In this document: in pieces, positions 7,908-42,727 of the stretch | Layout: each line of letters begins with the position of its first letter | Numbering within the stretch: position 1 is the stretch's first letter | Assembly (NCBI RefSeq): GCF_003342675.1 | Contig: NZ_CP031148.1 | Coordinates: 2,046,001 to 2,110,000 of the forward strand | From: Haloplanus rubicundus | GTDB lineage: Archaea; Halobacteriota; Halobacteria; Halobacteriales; Haloferacaceae | Direction: 5' to 3' | Length of the DNA stretch: 64,000 bases | The notes under the pieces: model-generated | What the model was told of the DNA's origin: nothing | The model's database searches: none | What the model saw: the letters and a program-made list of their open reading frames with translations, nothing else | Made by a program: the position numbers and the translations under genes

Positions 7908-8525
7908 CTACTCCGACCGCTCGCGGAAGCCGTCGATACCCAGGTCGTGCAGCGCCCGCGACACCCCCGCCACGCCCGCCCGCAACGCGTCGTGTTCGGC
8001 GTCCAGTCGCTCGACCAGTTCCGCGTGTTCGCGCGCCAGAATCTGGACCGCCGACAGCGCCGCGTTGTAGGACTTGCCCGCGTCGACGGCGACGATGGGC
8101 GCGCCCGTCGGCATGCCGATCACCGAATCGACCGATTTCTCCTGGACCGGCACGCCGATCACCGGGAGCGGGTAGGCGATGGAGGCCGTCATGTTCGGCA
8201 GGTCCGCGGACTTCCCGCCCGCTCCCGCGATGAGCACGTCCAGTCCGCGGTCGGCCGCCGTCTCGCCGTACGCGTACATCAGGTCCGGCGTTCGGTGGGC
8301 GGAGACGACGTAGCTCTCGAAGGTGAAGCGGGCCTCGGGCGGGTCGTCGTAGTCGGTCTGCTCGGCGAAGCCGAGTTCGCGGAGGGCGTCGTACGCCCCC
8401 GCCATCACGTCGAGGTCCGAGTCCGATCCCATGATGATACCCACCTCGGGCGTCTCCTCGGTCGGTCGGTCGGCGTCCGCCTGTGCGTGCAGTTCGTCGA
8501 TCAGGTCGTCGATGTCGTCGGTCAT
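7908..8525 (-). CDS. purE: N5-carboxyaminoimidazole ribonucleotide mutase (PurE class I)
   Basis: 205 aa. It converts N5-CAIR to CAIR in de novo purine synthesis. Signatures: MGSDSDLDVMAGAYDAL (about residues 33-49), YVVSAHRTPDLMYAY (about 71-85), the glycine-rich IAGAGGKSADLPNM (about 98-111) and GVPVQEKSVDSVIGMPTGAP (about 123-142). The first 25 residues are an acidic extension typical of haloarchaeal copies. It overlaps purK by 4 bases and follows it, so PurK product passes straight to PurE. A class I PurE paired with PurK fits the two-step carboxylation route. Confidence 0.96.
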   Translation of the reverse strand: MTDDIDDLIDELHAQADADRPTEETPEVGIIMGSDSDLDVMAGAYDALRELGFAEQTDYDDPPEARFTFESYVVSAHRTPDLMYAYGETAADRGLDVLIAGAGGKSADLPNMTASIAYPLPVIGVPVQEKSVDSVIGMPTGAPIVAVDAGKSYNAALSAVQILAREHAELVERLDAEHDALRAGVAGVSRALHDLGIDGFRERSE

Positions 8526-9691
8526 CGGAAGGTGAGTGCGTCGCGCAGTTCGCGTGTCGATTCGAGGAGTGCGGTCACGTCCGCCGGCGTCCCGTCCTCG
8601 CGGGTCGCCGTCACGTGTCCCATCTTGCGGAGCGGGCGCACCGAGTCTTTGCCGTACCAGTGGAGGTGGGCCGACTCCGCTTCGAGGACGGCCTCGACGC
8701 CGGCGAGTTCGGCCGGTCGCGTCTCGTCGACGGTCCCCAAAACGTTCGCGCTCACCGTCGGCGCGCGCTGTCGGGTCGATCCCAGCGGCCAGCCCAGGAC
8801 GGCACGGGCGTGCTGTTCGAACTGCGAGGTGACCGCCCCCTCGATACTCCAGTGCCCGGAGTTGTGGGGGCGCGGGGCGATTTCGTTGACCAAGATATCC
8901 CCCTCGGGAGTCTCGAACAGTTCGATGCCGAAGACGCCGCGGCCGTCGAGGGCGTCGAGCACCTCGCGGGCGACGGTCTGGGCGCGCTCTTTCACCGCCT
9001 CGCTCGTCCGCGCCGGGACGACCGTCTCGCGCAGGATCTCTTCCTCGTGGACGTTCTCGCCGACGGGGAACGTTCGCACCTCGCCGTCGCCCTGCACGCC
9101 GATGACGGAGACTTCGCGCTCGAAGTCGACGAACGCCTCCGCCAGCGCGGCCGGGTCGTCGGCCGACCCGACGGTTTCGATGGCGTCCTCGGCCTCCTCC
9201 GGCGAGCGGACCGGGACGTTGCCCCGGCCGTCGTAGCCGCCCTCCCGAGCTTTCAGCATCACGGCGCCGAACTCCTCGACGGCGGCTTCGAGGTCGGCCA
9301 CCGAGTCGACGCGGCGGTACTCGGGGACCGGAATCCCGGCCTCGGTCAGCATCTCCTTCTCCAGGAACTTGTCCTGAATCGTTCGCAGCGTTTCGGGCGT
9401 CGGGTGGACCGGCACGTCCGCCGCCTCGCTCGCGTCCGCGAGGTGGTCCGGGTCCGCGAGTTCGATTTCGTAGGTCAGCGCGTCGGCGCGGTCGGCCAGC
9501 CGACCGATGGCGTCCGGATCGTCGAAGTCGCCGACGATCTGATCGCGCGCGACGGGCGCGGCCGGACAGTCCGGCGTCGGGTCGAGCACGATGGTCTCGA
9601 CGCCGAGCGGGGCCGCCGCCTCGGCGAGCATCCGGCCGAGCTGGCCGCCGCCGACCACGCCGAGCGTCGGTCCGGGGACGGTTATCGTCAT
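8522..9691 (-). CDS. purK: 5-(carboxyamino)imidazole ribonucleotide synthase (PurK)
   Basis: 389 aa ATP-grasp enzyme making N5-CAIR from AIR, bicarbonate and ATP. The N-terminus has the Rossmann-like GVVGGGQLGRMLAEAA; the middle has KAREGGYDGRGNV (ATP-grasp glycine loop, about residue 149) and the catalytic segment EIAPRPHNSGHWSIEGAVTS (about 265-284). The start MTITVPGPT was chosen because it directly precedes the glycine loop and because a TTTAAG element lies about 27 bases upstream (9717-9722), fitting a leaderless transcript; longer in-frame readings run into the kinase pseudogene. It leads the purK-purE pair. Confidence 0.95.
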   Translation of the reverse strand: MTITVPGPTLGVVGGGQLGRMLAEAAAPLGVETIVLDPTPDCPAAPVARDQIVGDFDDPDAIGRLADRADALTYEIELADPDHLADASEAADVPVHPTPETLRTIQDKFLEKEMLTEAGIPVPEYRRVDSVADLEAAVEEFGAVMLKAREGGYDGRGNVPVRSPEEAEDAIETVGSADDPAALAEAFVDFEREVSVIGVQGDGEVRTFPVGENVHEEEILRETVVPARTSEAVKERAQTVAREVLDALDGRGVFGIELFETPEGDILVNEIAPRPHNSGHWSIEGAVTSQFEQHARAVLGWPLGSTRQRAPTVSANVLGTVDETRPAELAGVEAVLEAESAHLHWYGKDSVRPLRKMGHVTATREDGTPADVTALLESTRELRDALTFR

Positions 9692-9792: not shown

Positions 9793-11288
9793 TCAGTCGA
9801 CGAACTCGACGCCGGTGATTTCGAACCGGGCGCCACCGCTCTCGCCAGTCCGAGCGCGGATGGACCAGCCGTGGGCTTCGACGATTTCTTCGACGATGGA
9901 CAGTCCGAAACCCGTCCCAGCTTTGAGCGTCGTGTAGCCGCTCTCGAATATCCGATCCTGCTCCGCGGTGGAATCCCCGCACCGTCGTCTTCGACGTACA
10001 CGCCGGTTCGATCCGGGAGCACGCCGGCCGTGATCCGGACCGACGCTTCGTTGTGTTCGACGGCGTCACCGGTCTCCGACCGGTTGCCCGCCGAGCCGTG
10101 CTCGACGGCGTTCCGGAGCAGGTTCTCCATCGCCTCCTTCAGCCGACTCGGGTCACACCGAATCCGGGCGGAGCCAGCGACGGCCACCGTCGTCCGCATC
10201 GTCGCCACGTTGCTACTGCTCGCGTCCACGACGTCGGCGAAGTCGACGGCGGTGAGTTCGTCGATGGTCTCGCCGGTCCGGGCGAGCGTGAGGAGGTCTT
10301 CCAACAGGTCGTTCATCTGGGCGAGCGACCGGGCGGTCGTTTCGAGGTGAGGACTCTCACACTCCCGGCGGGCGATGTCGAGGTGCCCGTCGGCGACGTT
10401 CAGCGGGTTCCGCAGATCGTGGGCGACGGTCTACGTGAACTGGTCCAGGGTCTCGTTCTTTCTCGCGAGATCCCGCTCGCGGGTCTTTCGCTCCGTGATG
10501 TCGCGCGTGAAGCCGACGACACGCTGGACGGTCCCGTCGTCGTCCGTGACCGGTTTGCAGTGTGACTCCACCCAGAGTTGCATCCCGGAGGCGTGATCGA
10601 CTCGAAACTCGACTTGCTGGGCCGTTCCGGCCGAGGCACGTTCCATCGCCAGTGTCACTCGGTCGCGGTCGTCGTCGTGTACCACGTCCAGAAAGGCGCT
10701 CGGATCGGTACGGATCGTCTCGGGGGATTGACCGAAGACGTCCTCGTATGCGGCGTTGACGAACAGGAGTTCCCCCCAGTCGGCGGAGAACGTCCACAGG
10801 ACGTCGTTCGAGGTCTGGGCCAGTTCGTGCAGCCGCTCGTCCGCACGGGCGGCGCTTCGCTCCATCCGGCGACGCTCGACGTGAGAGACGACCTTCCGAG
10901 CGACGAGCGCGTGTTGGCTGCCGATGGGTTCCTGAATGATGTAATCGGTGACGCCCGCCGAGATGGCCTCGCTCGCGGCTACCTCGCTCCCGGTCTCCGT
11001 GAACATGATAAACGGGAGCGACGCGTCGACCGCGCGAACGTCCCGGAGTAACGCCACGCCCGTCCGTTCCGGCATGTGATAGTCGCTCAACACGCAGTCG
11101 ACGTCCCCGTTGCGGACCGCCTCGATCCCCTCGTCCGCGGACAGCGCCGTCCGCACGGTCAGCCGCTCGTTCTCGCGTTCCAGCCCCCTGACCAGAAGCT
11201 CCAAGAGATCCGGATCGTCGTTCACGTAGAGGACCGTGATCGTATCGCCGACACTCTGCACTCGCGGAACCACGCCCACCGAACGCAT
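9793..11288 (-). pseudogene. broken hybrid histidine kinase (REC-PAS-HisKA-HATPase)
   Basis: A single ancestral reading frame runs across this span but is interrupted twice. The first 285 codons encode a receiver domain (aspartate in CVLSDYHMP; later FTETGSEVAASEAISAGVTD) and a PAS domain ending GFTRDITERKTRERDLARKN. The frame then hits TAG (10431-10433), and immediately after it the same frame continues TVAHDLRNPLNVADGHL, the phosphoacceptor H-box, followed by the N-box ENLLRNAVEHG and the G1 box VEDDGAGIPP. Near 9966-9967 one base is missing: the G1-box frame ends, and the next frame carries DRIFESGYTTLKAGTGFGLSIVEEIVEAHG and the natural C-terminus ending at 9793. The homologues usually have Ser (TCG) where TAG stands, so one C-to-A change explains the stop. 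No intact kinase can be made; the receiver-PAS portion could still be translated. Confidence 0.85.
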
Positions 11289-11484
11289 ATGCTTTCGGCG
11301 TCGGGTATCAGCCCCGATAATCGGGCTACACGCAACCCCCGCTCCGCGTCCGAAGCGTGGTTTTCAGTCGTGTCTAAAGCCGCGCGAGACTCACTGTCGC
11401 TCGTCTCGCTGGCTTCAGGCACTAATCGTGCCGGAAGCACCACGGGACTCGCTCCGCTCGTCCCGTGAACTTCAGACACTCCTT
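11289..11484. repeat. hairpin-rich spacer 3' of purNH
   Basis: No gene. It contains nested inverted repeats. (1) GTGTCTAAAGCC (11371-11382) pairs imperfectly with GGCTTCAGGCAC (11411-11422), and inside it GCGAGAC (from about 11385) pairs exactly with GTCTCGC. (2) CACGGGAC and GTCCCGTG (about 11441-11467) pair exactly around an 11-base loop. (3) CTTCAGACAC (11470-11479) pairs exactly with GTGTCTGAAG (11491-11500), with the purNH stop codon in its loop. The motif TTCAGTCGTGTCT occurs twice (11363 and 11484 onward). This could be a terminator region of purNH or a small structured RNA or repeat remnant. Confidence 0.6.
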
Positions 11485-13059
11485 TCAGTCGTGTCTGAAG
11501 CACCGCTTTCCGGTGAACGCCATCGCCATGTCGTGGTCGTCCGCGGCGGCGACGACGTCCTCGTCGTTGACGGAGCCGCCGGGCTGGATCACGGCCGAAA
11601 CCCCCGACTTGGCCGCCTCCTCCACCCCGTCCGGGAACGGGAAGAACGCGTCGGAGGCCATCACGGCCCCCTCGGCGCCCTTTCCTTCGGCGTGTTCGTC
11701 CGCTTTCATCGCCGCCAGCCGCACGGCGTCGACGCGGCTGACCTGCCCCATGCCGATGCCGACCGTCTCCGTCCCCGACGCGAACAGGATGGCGTTGGAT
11801 TTGACGTGTTTCAGCGTCCGCCACGCGAACAGCATCGTCTCGATCTCCTCGTCGGTGGGGTCGCGTTCGGTGACGACCTCCAGATCCTCGCGGCTCGGCG
11901 CCCAGTCGTCGCGTTCCTGGACGAGGCGGCCGCCGGTCAGCGGCTTTTCGGTCAGCGCGTCGGTGCGTTCGGTCAACTCGCCCACGTCGAGGACGCGGAG
12001 GTTCTCCGTCTCGGTGAGGACGTCCAAGGCGCCGTCGGTGTAGCCGGGCGCGACGACGACTTCCTTGAACGAGTCGACGATGGATTCGGCGGTGGCGGCG
12101 TCGCAGGGGCGGTTCAAGGCGACGATGCCGCCGAAGGCGCTCATGGCGTCGGTCGCGAGGGCGTCGTCGTAGGCCTGTGAGAGCGAGTCGGCGGTCGCAC
12201 ACCCCGCCGGGTTGGTGTGTTTGATCACCGCGGCCGCGGGCTCCTCGAACTCCCGGATCAGATCGAGGGCGGCGTCGGCGTCGTTGTAGTTGTTGTACGA
12301 CAGCGCCTTCGCCCCCTCGTTCAACTGCGGGGCGGCGACGACGCTCGCGGCGTCGCTCGCGGCGTCGGCGTACAGCGCGGCGTCCTGGTGGGGGTTCTCG
12401 CCGTAGCGCAGCGTCCGGCTGCGGTCGTCGGAGACGGCGCGGCGGGTGGGGAACTGACCGGCCTCGTCGCCCTCGACGCGAACCTCGCCGTCCGCGACGG
12501 TGACGCGGTCCTCCGCGAACCACCTCACAGCGCGTGGGTACGCCTTGAACTCCGCCTCGTGGAGGACACGTCGCTTCAGGTCGTCGGCGTCGTCGCCCTC
12601 GTAGACCGGCACCGCCTCCTGCGTGACGATGGGACCGGCGTCGAGTTCCTCGGTGGCGACGTGGACGGTACAGCCCGTGGTGCGAACGCCGGCCGCGAGC
12701 GCCTGTTCGTGGGCGTCCTCACCACGGAATGCGGGGAGCAGGGAGGGGTGGACGTTGAGGGTGGTCGGCAGGGCCTCCAGCATCTCCCCGGAGAGGACGC
12801 GCATGTAGCCGTCCATGCAGACCAGGTCGAACTCGTAGTCGTTGAGGTGGTCGCGCACCCGCGACTCGTGGTCGGCACGAGTGTCGTCGCCGCGCTCGAC
12901 GACTTCGGTCGGGATGCCGCGGTCGGCGGCCGCCGACAGCACCGGCGCCGACTCGTGGTCGGTGAGGACTGCGGCCACCTCGGCGCCGCCGGGCGCCAGG
13001 TCCGCGATGTGCATCAGGTTCCGTCCGCGATTGCCGGCGAGACCCGCGATTCGGAGCAT
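11485..13059 (-). CDS. purNH: PurN-like / AICAR transformylase fusion (PurNH)
   Basis: 524 aa with two parts. Residues about 1-190 resemble glycinamide ribonucleotide formyltransferase: RIAGLAGNRGRNLMHIAD, the catalytic NVHPSLLPAF (about 107-116) and TVHVATEELDAGPIVTQE. Residues about 195-524 are the AICAR transformylase part of PurH: RYGENPHQDAALY, NYNDADAALDLI, AVIKHTNPAGCA, SDAFFPFPDGVEEAA and the C-terminus MAFTGKRCFRH. The N-terminal MGS-like IMP cyclohydrolase domain of bacterial PurH is absent, so IMP closure must be done elsewhere (PurO in archaea, family knowledge). The enzyme thus covers the two formyl-transfer steps. The start was set at MLRIAGLAG, the beginning of the PurN fold, 85 bases from the divergent purB. 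Confidence 0.93.
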   Translation of the reverse strand: MLRIAGLAGNRGRNLMHIADLAPGGAEVAAVLTDHESAPVLSAAADRGIPTEVVERGDDTRADHESRVRDHLNDYEFDLVCMDGYMRVLSGEMLEALPTTLNVHPSLLPAFRGEDAHEQALAAGVRTTGCTVHVATEELDAGPIVTQEAVPVYEGDDADDLKRRVLHEAEFKAYPRAVRWFAEDRVTVADGEVRVEGDEAGQFPTRRAVSDDRSRTLRYGENPHQDAALYADAASDAASVVAAPQLNEGAKALSYNNYNDADAALDLIREFEEPAAAVIKHTNPAGCATADSLSQAYDDALATDAMSAFGGIVALNRPCDAATAESIVDSFKEVVVAPGYTDGALDVLTETENLRVLDVGELTERTDALTEKPLTGGRLVQERDDWAPSREDLEVVTERDPTDEEIETMLFAWRTLKHVKSNAILFASGTETVGIGMGQVSRVDAVRLAAMKADEHAEGKGAEGAVMASDAFFPFPDGVEEAAKSGVSAVIQPGGSVNDEDVVAAADDHDMAMAFTGKRCFRHD

Positions 13060-13075
13060 GGTGGTGGGAGGCGGG

Positions 13076-13122
13076 CGCGAGGGAAAAACAGTTGCGACTC
13101 GGCGGACCGGTACGCTTTTGCG
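13076..13122. promoter_or_regulatory. divergent promoters of purNH and purB
   Basis: On the minus strand CTGTTTTTCCC (about 13081-13091) lies about 25-30 bases before the purNH ATG. On the plus strand ACGCTTTTGCG (about 13110-13120) lies about 27-33 bases before the purB ATG. Both spacings suit leaderless transcripts; the two purine genes share an 85-base control region. Confidence 0.45.
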
Positions 13123-13144
13123 CCGTCCACGGCGACTCCGGAGC

Positions 13145-14536
13145 ATGACCGATCTGCCACGGAGCGACCCGCTCGCGGCCGTCTCGCCGCTCGACGGGCG
13201 CTACGCGCGCTACACCGAACCGCTGGTGCCCTACGCCAGCGAGTCGGCGCTCATGCGGGCACGGGTCCGCGTCGAAGTCGAGTATCTCCTCGCGCTCGCG
13301 GACCTCGACGCGACACCGGTCGCCGTCGACGGCACGGAACGCGAGTCGTTGCGCGACTGCTATCAGGACTTCGACGCCGACGACGCCCGCCTGATCAAGC
13401 GCCTCGAAACCGAGGGTGCGGCGGGCTACAGCGCGACCAACCACGACGTGAAGGCGGTGGAGTACTTCCTGCAGACGGAGACGCGAGCATCGCTCCACCC
13501 GTGGATCCACTTCGGCCTGACCAGCGAGGACGTGAACAACCTCGCGCACCGCCTCCTGCTCGAACCCGCCGTCGAGGAGGTACTCCTGCCCGCGCTCGCA
13601 GGCGTGCGAGACGAACTGACGACGCTCGCCCGCGACTATCGGGACACGCCGATGCTCGCGCGCACCCACGGCCAGCCGGCGACGCCCACGACGTTCGGCA
13701 AGGAGATGGCCGTCGTCGCCGCGCGCCTCGGGCGGACGATGGGCCGGGTCCGCGAGGCTGCGGACTCGCTTTCGGGCAAACTCGCCGGCGCTTCGGGCAC
13801 CTACGCCGCCCACGACGCCGCCTACCCCGACGTGGACTGGCCGGCCTTTTCCCGCGAGTTCGTCACGGGGCTCGGCCTCGATCATACGCCGCTCGCGACG
13901 CAGGTCAACCCCTGTGACGACATCGCCACCCTGTTCGACGCCCTCCGCGGCGTCAACAACGTCCTCCGGGATCTGGACCTCGACGCGTGGCTCTACGTCT
14001 CCGACCGGTATCTGGGACAGCGCGCCGTCGCGGGCGAGACGGGGTCGTCGACGATGCCCCACAAGGTGAACCCCATCGACTTCGAGAACAGCGAGGGGAA
14101 CCTCTCGAAGGCCAACGCGGACCTGACCTTCCTCGCGGACTACGTGACCACCTCGCGACTCCAGCGCGACCTCTCGGATTCGACGGTCAAACGCAATATG
14201 GGCGCGGCGCTCGGCCACTGCCTCATCGCCTACCGCAAGACCGAGGCCGGGCTGGAGAAGGTGGTGCCGAACGAGCAGGTGATGCGCGAGGAACTAGAGG
14301 CGACGCCCGAAGTGATCGGCGAGGCGGTTCAGACGATTCTGCGCCGCGAGGGCGACACCGAGGCCTACGAGCGCGTGAAGGAGCTCACGCGAGGGGAGCG
14401 GGTGACCATCGAGGACTTCCGCGACCTGTTCGAGGACCTAGACGTGGACGCGCCGGTGCGCGAGGAGCTCCGGGCGTTGACGCCGGCGACGTACACCGGG
14501 GTGGCGGCGACTCTCGCGGATTCGGCGCCGGAGTAG
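13145..14536 (+). CDS. purB: adenylosuccinate lyase
   Basis: 463 aa. It catalyses fumarate release from SAICAR and from adenylosuccinate. Family marks: SPLDGRYARYTEPL at the N-terminus, NHDVKAVEYFL, HFGLTSEDVNN (about residues 121-131), the catalytic ARTHGQPATPTTFGKEM (about 175-191) and the mobile signature loop GSSTMPHKVNPIDFENSEGN (about 300-319). Length is normal. The start is the first ATG after a TATA-like element and matches the family N-terminus. It is divergent from purNH, its pathway neighbour, which uses the AICAR that this enzyme makes. Confidence 0.97.
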   Translation: MTDLPRSDPLAAVSPLDGRYARYTEPLVPYASESALMRARVRVEVEYLLALADLDATPVAVDGTERESLRDCYQDFDADDARLIKRLETEGAAGYSATNHDVKAVEYFLQTETRASLHPWIHFGLTSEDVNNLAHRLLLEPAVEEVLLPALAGVRDELTTLARDYRDTPMLARTHGQPATPTTFGKEMAVVAARLGRTMGRVREAADSLSGKLAGASGTYAAHDAAYPDVDWPAFSREFVTGLGLDHTPLATQVNPCDDIATLFDALRGVNNVLRDLDLDAWLYVSDRYLGQRAVAGETGSSTMPHKVNPIDFENSEGNLSKANADLTFLADYVTTSRLQRDLSDSTVKRNMGAALGHCLIAYRKTEAGLEKVVPNEQVMREELEATPEVIGEAVQTILRREGDTEAYERVKELTRGERVTIEDFRDLFEDLDVDAPVREELRALTPATYTGVAATLADSAPE

Positions 14537-42405: not shown

Positions 42406-42727
42406 GAATCAGCGCTGAAAATCGGGGGCTCGGTTTTATGTGCCGAATCCGCAAACCGACGGGTGCGACGACCGGTTGCAACGGCGGCGCCGCCGTCACC
42501 GGATTCGTCCGGTTGTGCGAGGAGCACCGCTCCCCCGCCGCCGGCGACGAGTTGTCGGACTGGGGGCGAACACGGGTGGGGAGGATTGTACCTGCGTACT
42601 CGGACACCGTACGTCCGGGGTGCGGTACTGTGAGTGACACAACCACACCGGTCGCTCCACATTTTATTTCTAACAATATACGCACAATATAAACGACTTT
42701 TACCCAGCCCTCCCCCGGTCGACTCGC
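42406..42727. other. intergenic region trkH-phoX
   Basis: No convincing gene. It holds a 10-base palindrome TCAGCGCTGA just after the trkH stop (about 42409-42418), a 16-base perfect palindrome ACGGCGGCGCCGCCGT (42481-42496), the dyad TGTG-AGTGA-CACA (42629-42641) and the phoX promoter. A frame from 42439 contains four cysteines but shows no family resemblance and was not called. Confidence 0.6.
42682..42697 (+). promoter_or_regulatory. TATA element of the phoX gene
   Basis: ACAATATAAACG (42684-42695), 33-44 bases before the ATG at 42728, in an A/T-rich stretch that begins about 42660. Confidence 0.6.

Follow-up and report, generated by a model that had tools for sequence, protein, structure and literature searches.

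A histidine kinase gene of Haloplanus rubicundus, broken twice, carries a 45-nt palindromic insert that belongs to a dispersed family of units, found in frame in haloarchaeal kinases and enzymes, in which perfect DNA hairpins have been kept or made. The gene lies in a 64,000-nt stretch of DNA (contig NZ_CP031148.1, positions 2,046,001 to 2,110,000), the whole of which is referred to here as the window. Taken as a whole, the observations are best explained by the recent inactivation of a dispensable kinase that had earlier gained a dispersed palindromic unit, an account that we hold with considerable confidence for its two parts jointly; on this account, the lesions would be ordinary and reflect the recent loss of a dispensable kinase. 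The insert matters more than the lesions of the kinase.

A kinase gene with two lesions

Positions 11288 to 9793 of the window (reverse strand) hold a haloarchaeal REC-PAS-HisKA-HATPase kinase gene that is broken by an in-frame TAG and by a one-base loss. The gene was identified by translation, by Pfam and by the intact orthologues in two genomes of the same genus (G002 and G009), and it lies between two genes that, from their protein sequences, we take to be purH and purK. The earlier claim that the frames belong to one REC-PAS-HisKA-HATPase protein, made in a sequence-only reading, was borne out by Pfam and by the alignment of all three segments of the gene with the intact orthologues.

Segment A (10434–11288, reverse strand) is an open frame of 285 aa that contains the receiver and PAS domains, as indicated by the ORF list, Pfam and the orthologue alignment; an alternative start, GTG at 11261, is closer to the starts of the orthologues. 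Pfam detected Response_reg (19–118, 2.1e-18) and PAS_3 (175–260, 1.9e-16) before the TAG; the matches after the TAG were HisKA (1.6e-10) and the beginning of HATPase_c (3.8e-07). The TAG itself (10431–10433, reverse strand) is located four codons ahead of the H-box histidine, and its codon is TCG (Ser) in both the G002 and the G009 orthologue, exactly the codon that had been predicted for this position. Segment B (9969–10430, reverse strand; Pfam and orthologue alignment) comprises HisKA, the N-box and the G1 box of the ATPase domain, and this HisKA/HATPase sequence keeps the frame of segment A up to 9969, where the frame shifts. Alignment with the two orthologues showed two bases (9967–9968, reverse strand) in place of a whole codon, a net deletion of a single base immediately 3′ of the G1 box. 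The sequence-only reading had placed a missing base inside the G1 box; the gene is indeed one base short, but the site is the next codon after ...GIP (9968–9967). Segment C (9793–9966, reverse strand) contains, in the shifted frame, the remaining ATPase domain with the G2 box, GTGFGLSI; its translation between 9966 and 9796 is GTGFGLSIVEEIVEAHG...VEFVD, and the natural stop TGA (9795–9793) follows. The domain order receiver, PAS, HisKA and HATPase_c is present, the last part of the ATPase domain being found only in the shifted frame, and the gene has no single continuous reading frame (TAG at 10433–10431, net one-base loss at 9968–9967). Of the H, N, G1 and G2 boxes of the window kinase, G1 is presumably EDDGAGI.

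In the receiver of the window copy (10434–11288, reverse strand), the residue after the DY motif is Gln, and the corresponding residue is Arg in G002 and G009. In receivers this residue is usually a lysine, so the Gln or Arg at this position raises the possibility that the receivers of this kinase group may signal in an unusual manner.

The TAG would cut the protein ahead of the phospho-accepting histidine, and the one-base loss would independently put the ATP lid and the G2 box out of frame, so that no kinase could be made; the window kinase is therefore predicted to be inactive. It is quite unlikely that the truncated product of 285 aa (or 276 aa) is kept as a REC-PAS switch, which would accept phosphate and have no output domain. 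Consistent with such a switch, protein-changing substitutions are not in excess in segment A, and open frames of only 267–329 aa elsewhere in the genus contain further REC-PAS candidates, matched by sequence. In the excerpts of PMC5847659 used here, archaeal REC-PAS response regulators are described, as are archaeal REC-PAS proteins with no obvious output domain. On the other side, the two intact orthologues retain the kinase, and segments B and C are kept as well as A, which makes the lesions too young for judging REC-PAS retention. That the TAG is read through, or that the parts are made separately and cooperate, is very improbable. Bacterial in-frame stops have been reported in genes under purifying selection (excerpts of PMC7918605), but a read-through product would still encounter the frame shift ahead of the G2 box, and translation from the next ATG, at 10316, would begin after the H-box and meet the shifted frame as well; read-through and split function were rejected on these two grounds.

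Orthologues and probable repeated loss in the genus

The genome collections used here contain one genome per species. The kinase gene was found in three of the 12 genus genomes, being broken in the genome of the window (G000) and uninterrupted in G002 (475 aa) and G009 (474 aa), in which it is located upstream of purK as the window copy is. The comparison with an intact orthologue, to which the sequence-only reading had looked, could thus be made with two copies that are open throughout. No kinase pieces were detected between purH and purK at E ≤ 0.01 in the other nine genomes, where purH adjoins purK at a distance of ~70 to 640 bases. These nine include G005, the sister genome of G000 in the tree (support 100/99; 93.8% identity over 1058 columns from three proteins), in which the purH–purK gap is about 210 bases (L055) and the kinase is absent from the locus. 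The tree of the 12 genomes forces at least three gains or losses of the kinase gene. The simplest account would be that the genus has repeatedly lost this gene and, given these repeated losses and the sister genome without the gene, the window copy would represent a snapshot of one stage of loss.

The upstream neighbour in the window is a purH-like open frame (11485–13146, reverse strand), and the downstream neighbour is a purK-like open frame (8522–9691, reverse strand) that is 85–95% identical in the 11 other genus genomes, purK having been found in all 12. Outside the genus, near relatives of the kinase occur in Natronocalculus amylovorans and Halohasta litorea (55% identity). A related kinase in a genome of another family (L005, G056) also adjoins purH, in the opposite orientation. 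The spacer between purH and the kinase gene (11289–11484) shows many inverted repeats by eye. A genomic repeat at this spacer (11280–11500) was ruled out, as a genome search matched the query alone.

Age of the lesions

In a three-copy comparison, 82 of the 158 changes unique to the window copy were at third codon positions, as were 94 of 175 in G002 and 65 of 134 in G009. The third-position counts for the window copy were 47/94 in segment A, 26/46 in segment B and 9/18 in segment C, and 35/64 after the TAG. Neutral decay is expected to move the third-position share towards one third; the test is weak, and we estimate from the counts that as much as about 40% of the branch may have been neutral. 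Since its codon-position changes are like those of the intact orthologues, the decay of the window copy looks recent, with little sign of relaxed selection in this low-power test. The proposal of a recent decay with well-conserved domains is supported by the intact-like share of third-position changes, and that of two independent lesions by the intact orthologues and the aligned segments.

The ORFs in a 100-kb stretch of G009 and in a 100-kb stretch of G002, both taken around the locus, were compared with the window; an identity of at least 55% counted as a match, whatever the gene order. Matches were obtained for 42 of the 77 G009 ORFs and 17 of the 74 G002 ORFs, and the kinase was the sole one with a stop or a frame change; a general assembly problem was not seen, the other matched ORFs being unbroken. 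The window gene was also the only HisKA match with an internal stop among the matches listed (356 in all, from the 12 genus genomes). It is therefore unlikely that both lesions are assembly or sequencing errors and that the living strain has an intact kinase. Such errors would fit the fact that each lesion is a single-base event and that the remainder of the gene looks selected, but they would have left every matched ORF except the kinase unbroken, and two different types of error in a repeatedly lost gene would be a coincidence. A recent inactivation of the kinase remains our preferred account of the lesions.

A 45-nt palindromic unit in the kinase gene

The window kinase contains 15 residues after the N-box (NAVEH-GSAGNRSETGD-AVEH) that were overlooked in the sequence-only reading. 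In the DNA, these residues correspond to a 45-nt in-frame insert, which together with the 9 nt starting the next copy (VEHGSAGNRSETGDAVEH) occupies 10053–10106 (reverse strand); it was delimited by the orthologue alignment and scored 74.5 bits with the covariance model described below. By stem pairing count, hairpin 1 of this unit (10090–10106, reverse strand) forms 6 of 7 pairs and hairpin 2 (10068–10084, reverse strand) forms 7 of 7. The alignment showed that the 15-residue insert is absent from both orthologues (L002 and L003), and the next nearest loci (L004–L007) are also without it, their matching stretches being about 15 codons shorter. The window kinase would thus have gained the 45-nt unit in the post-N-box loop, probably before it was broken.

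When the genus was searched with the insert at the DNA level, like sequences were found in many kinases (91% over 75 nt in one G002 kinase), several matches sometimes falling within a single kinase gene. Kinases have two to four VEH copies after the N-box, equivalent to between one and three units, each of about 15 residues, and the units occur there singly or in tandem, for example in the window (10053–10106, reverse strand) and at L080, L096, L137, L149 and L165. Tandem arrangement is seen in the L093 kinase, where SVEHGSTRNRTESGD occurs twice in succession, in one G085 gene with five successive overlapping pattern matches, and in loci where the pattern matches are spaced exactly 45 nt. Two G000 kinases (C2:886637 and C2:2182763) have a common unit, one base apart. 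Because VEH is fixed at either end of the pattern, the left arm of hairpin 1 is constrained, whereas hairpin 2 is free. The pattern matched 40 of 59 genomes, many of the rows being chance matches as judged by translation, compared with 9 of 59 for the reversed control.

A set of units was assembled with this pattern from the loci collected, which included 45 stretches picked by hand among the matches listed for their unit-like look. The loci gave 110 pattern matches in distinct contexts, those near locus ends being skipped; 28 failed the kinase-context filter (7 of them unit-like by peptide) and 3 were duplicates, leaving 79 units. A search of six unit loci against Rfam returned nothing at the gathering score but a tRNA in L048, and the other five rows were sub-threshold.

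Hairpin structure and covariation

Each unit contains a pair of hairpins, both with a stem of 7 bp and a loop of 3 nt (columns 1–7/11–17 and 23–29/33–39). In the 79 kinase-context units, 93.9% of the 1106 stem cells held standard pairs, compared with 83.0 ± 0.6 in the shuffled sets, and double-changed stem cells numbered 154, compared with 53.8 ± 10.7; in neither case was any of the 500 shuffles as high. Two weaker measures gave 8 stem pairs with a double change (6.0 when shuffled, 3/500 as high) and 23 further pair types (19.5 when shuffled, 1/500 as high). One stem pair was A-T 38 times, G-C 14 times, C-G 13 times and T-A 3 times. Because the protein itself could impose pairing, codons for the same amino acid were also shuffled within each column. 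Hairpin 1 formed 6.56 of 7 pairs, compared with 5.82 (sd 0.075) in the codon-shuffle null, and hairpin 2 formed 6.32 of 7, compared with 5.54 (sd 0.069); synonymous sampling by kinase codon usage gave 4.77 and 3.67 pairs, respectively. Ancestry of the units can inflate the results of all of these shuffles and codon nulls and is kept solely in the slid controls, in which pairing fell to 24–44% when the partner was moved by 1–3 columns.

The mismatches among the 1106 stem cells consisted of 33 A.C, 21 G.T and 35 others. Because A.C and G.T cells are similar in number, the pairing looks like a property of DNA and not of a sense RNA; RNA-level pairing was rejected, since the mismatches show no wobble preference such as a selected sense RNA would give. 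The stems covary beyond the codon-preserving nulls, apparently at the DNA level. Such covariation can come from hairpin-templated mutation, without any function.

Dispersal beyond kinases and empty sites

A covariance model was built from the 79 units and run on the 12 genus genomes. Matches were obtained in all 12, with 10–44 in each at E ≤ 0.01, a threshold that is too lax in GC-rich DNA, and with a best match per genome of at least 47 bits; our conclusions are based on empty sites and on matches scoring more than about 40 bits. The window had four matches at E ≤ 0.01, of which the first (74.5 bits) alone is convincing and the next scored 22.0. A weak match of 22 bits at 42487–42535 (reverse strand), just past a TrkH-like gene, is near chance in GC-rich DNA.

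Among the matches listed, 20 stretches were picked by hand, nine from G000 and 11 from other genomes. Six were kinase N-box units, one was in the PAS region of a kinase, and 13 were outside kinases. Since L219, L224 and L225 are one orthologous gene and L222, L223 and L227 are IS copies, the 13 non-kinase stretches represent eight protein contexts, and in these eight unrelated contexts, for which orientation and frame were judged, the unit always has the same orientation and the same frame. G000 has the unit in an alpha/beta hydrolase (L217) and in a TPP enzyme, presumably MenD. It is also present in a DUF7097 protein (G000, G009 and G005), an aldehyde ferredoxin oxidoreductase (G003), a Mg-chelatase/AAA-like protein (G007), an HVO_0234-like beta-propeller (G003), a pyridine nucleotide-disulphide oxidoreductase (G009) and 2,3-bisphosphoglycerate-independent phosphoglycerate mutase (iPGM; L231, G002). 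Further non-kinase unit loci are L220, L225, L226, L228, L229 and L230.

The iPGM of G002 has a 15-residue insert (IERGSTSSRTRSDDAIERGS), and nine of the 12 genus genomes are without an insert. The empty iPGM site, such as GAC GAC GCC ATC GCC GAC GGC TCC, resembles the unit ends. The hydrolase has a clear unit in G000 alone and degenerate extra residues in G002 and G005, the other nine of the 12 genomes being without the unit. As regards the target-site duplications that would mark a MITE or an IS-mobilised element, short repeats such as GACGACGGC flank the hydrolase insert but belong to the unit as well.

Degenerate inserts of similar length were observed in the iPGM of G001 (L246) and G011 (L251), at the same site as in G002; they represent either a single old insertion that is decaying or repeated insertion. 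In G006, a unit is located between the tnpB-like gene and the far end in three near-alike IS copies (L222, L223 and L227), outside the open frame. Judged by its protein, this element is presumably of the IS200/IS605 type, and the unit may be a passenger of the IS or a hint of the enzyme involved.

The flanks of the units were compared for 59 of the 79 units. Of 1710 unit pairs from different loci, 10 reached at least 94% identity over 36 interior nt, and in an ungapped comparison the 84-nt upstream flanks of these pairs were 45–57% identical in nine cases and 88% identical in the tenth. Over 1706 pairs, mean identity was 48.7% for the upstream flank, and 77.6% for the 21-nt N-box versus 71.0% for the unit interior. 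The units move independently of the genes in which they reside.

Proposed origin and spread of the unit

On balance, we favour the proposal that haloarchaea harbor unrecognised 45-nt protein-coding palindromic elements, which spread by way of their hairpins, insert in one orientation and frame, and grow in tandem within a loop of the kinase ATP-binding domain. Spread would probably involve a single strand that forms hairpins and is copied into sites similar to the unit's own ends. The resemblance of the empty sites to the unit ends (GAC-GAC/GCC-(G/A)TC-GA) suggests copying at short homologies, in which a hairpin-acting enzyme of the IS200/IS605 type perhaps helps. If the proposal is true, kinases and even glycolytic enzymes acquire extra loops by unit insertion.

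We consider it unlikely that the insert is instead a conserved kinase peptide loop, swapped by gene conversion among paralogues, with hairpins that merely result from codon usage. In its favour, the post-N-box site is shared by most of the high-scoring units with an inspected context, the peptide GSTSxRxExxDD is similar throughout, and mean identity is higher for the N-box than for the unit interior; the location of nearly all kinase units at one place also fits recombination among paralogues. Conversion between kinases is, however, difficult to reconcile with units in eight unrelated non-kinase contexts and with the empty sites in nine of the 12 genus genomes at both of the contexts tested, and the observed pairing lies some ten or more standard deviations above two codon-preserving nulls (relatedness being uncontrolled in these nulls). 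We therefore prefer a dispersed palindromic unit to a swapped kinase loop.

Comparison with known elements

The domain order of the window copy is that of the haloarchaeal REC-(PAS)n-HisKA-HATPase kinases described in the excerpts of PMC5847659, and its H, N, G1 and G2 boxes are readable; unlike those kinases, the window copy has a TAG and a frame shift. Haloarchaea have dozens of sensor kinases, and the broken kinase adds one case to the lineage-specific losses among them. The unit carries a warning for the study of such proteins, in that loop insertions common to unrelated kinases may reflect the spread of an element and not a shared function.

In the parts of PMC10969869 and PMC2229807 drawn upon here, Rickettsia is the main source of protein-coding palindromic elements. 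Such elements may be selfish, tolerated or useful. A description of a palindromic coding unit in haloarchaea was not found in the literature searched (titles and abstracts). A haloarchaeal family of units would make the question of selfish, tolerated or useful elements testable in organisms with good genetics. Its assets in this respect are the tandem copy-number variation in a defined kinase loop and the clean empty sites in a central enzyme.

The archaeal repeats of Suyama and colleagues are reportedly palindromic and are said to come from Methanocaldococcus jannaschii, a methanogen and not a haloarchaeon. As mentioned in a part of PMC2229807 that cites Suyama et al. 2005, these archaeal repeats are fused into protein genes, as the haloarchaeal unit is. 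REP sequences, as characterised in the excerpts of PMC12306157, are short multi-copy palindromes of bacteria and archaea that seldom overlap coding regions. The haloarchaeal unit is likewise a short multi-copy palindrome but, unlike REP sequences so described, those of its copies with a confirmed protein context are located within coding sequence.

The haloarchaeal unit resembles the Rickettsia palindromic elements (RPE), palindromes of 105–150 bp that occur in frame in many unrelated genes (excerpts of PMC10969869 and PMC2229807). Like RPE as described there, the haloarchaeal unit is a short palindromic DNA present in many copies and in frame in unrelated conserved protein genes. Among the hallmarks of RPE-type elements, we found inverted repeats beyond the need of the protein, with relatedness controlled by the slid structures alone, in-frame copies in unrelated protein genes (eight contexts) and empty sites in orthologues in two of these eight contexts (iPGM and the hydrolase); the 45-nt length of the unit falls outside the RPE range of about 105–150 bp. 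Unlike the RPE of these sources (about 105–150 bp), the unit is about 45 nt long, forms two small hairpins and resides in an archaeal host; it is also often tandem and concentrated in one histidine-kinase loop, so that the two are likened by organisation and not by sequence. Because of its length, we do not class the haloarchaeal unit as an RPE, but regard it as an element that works like one.
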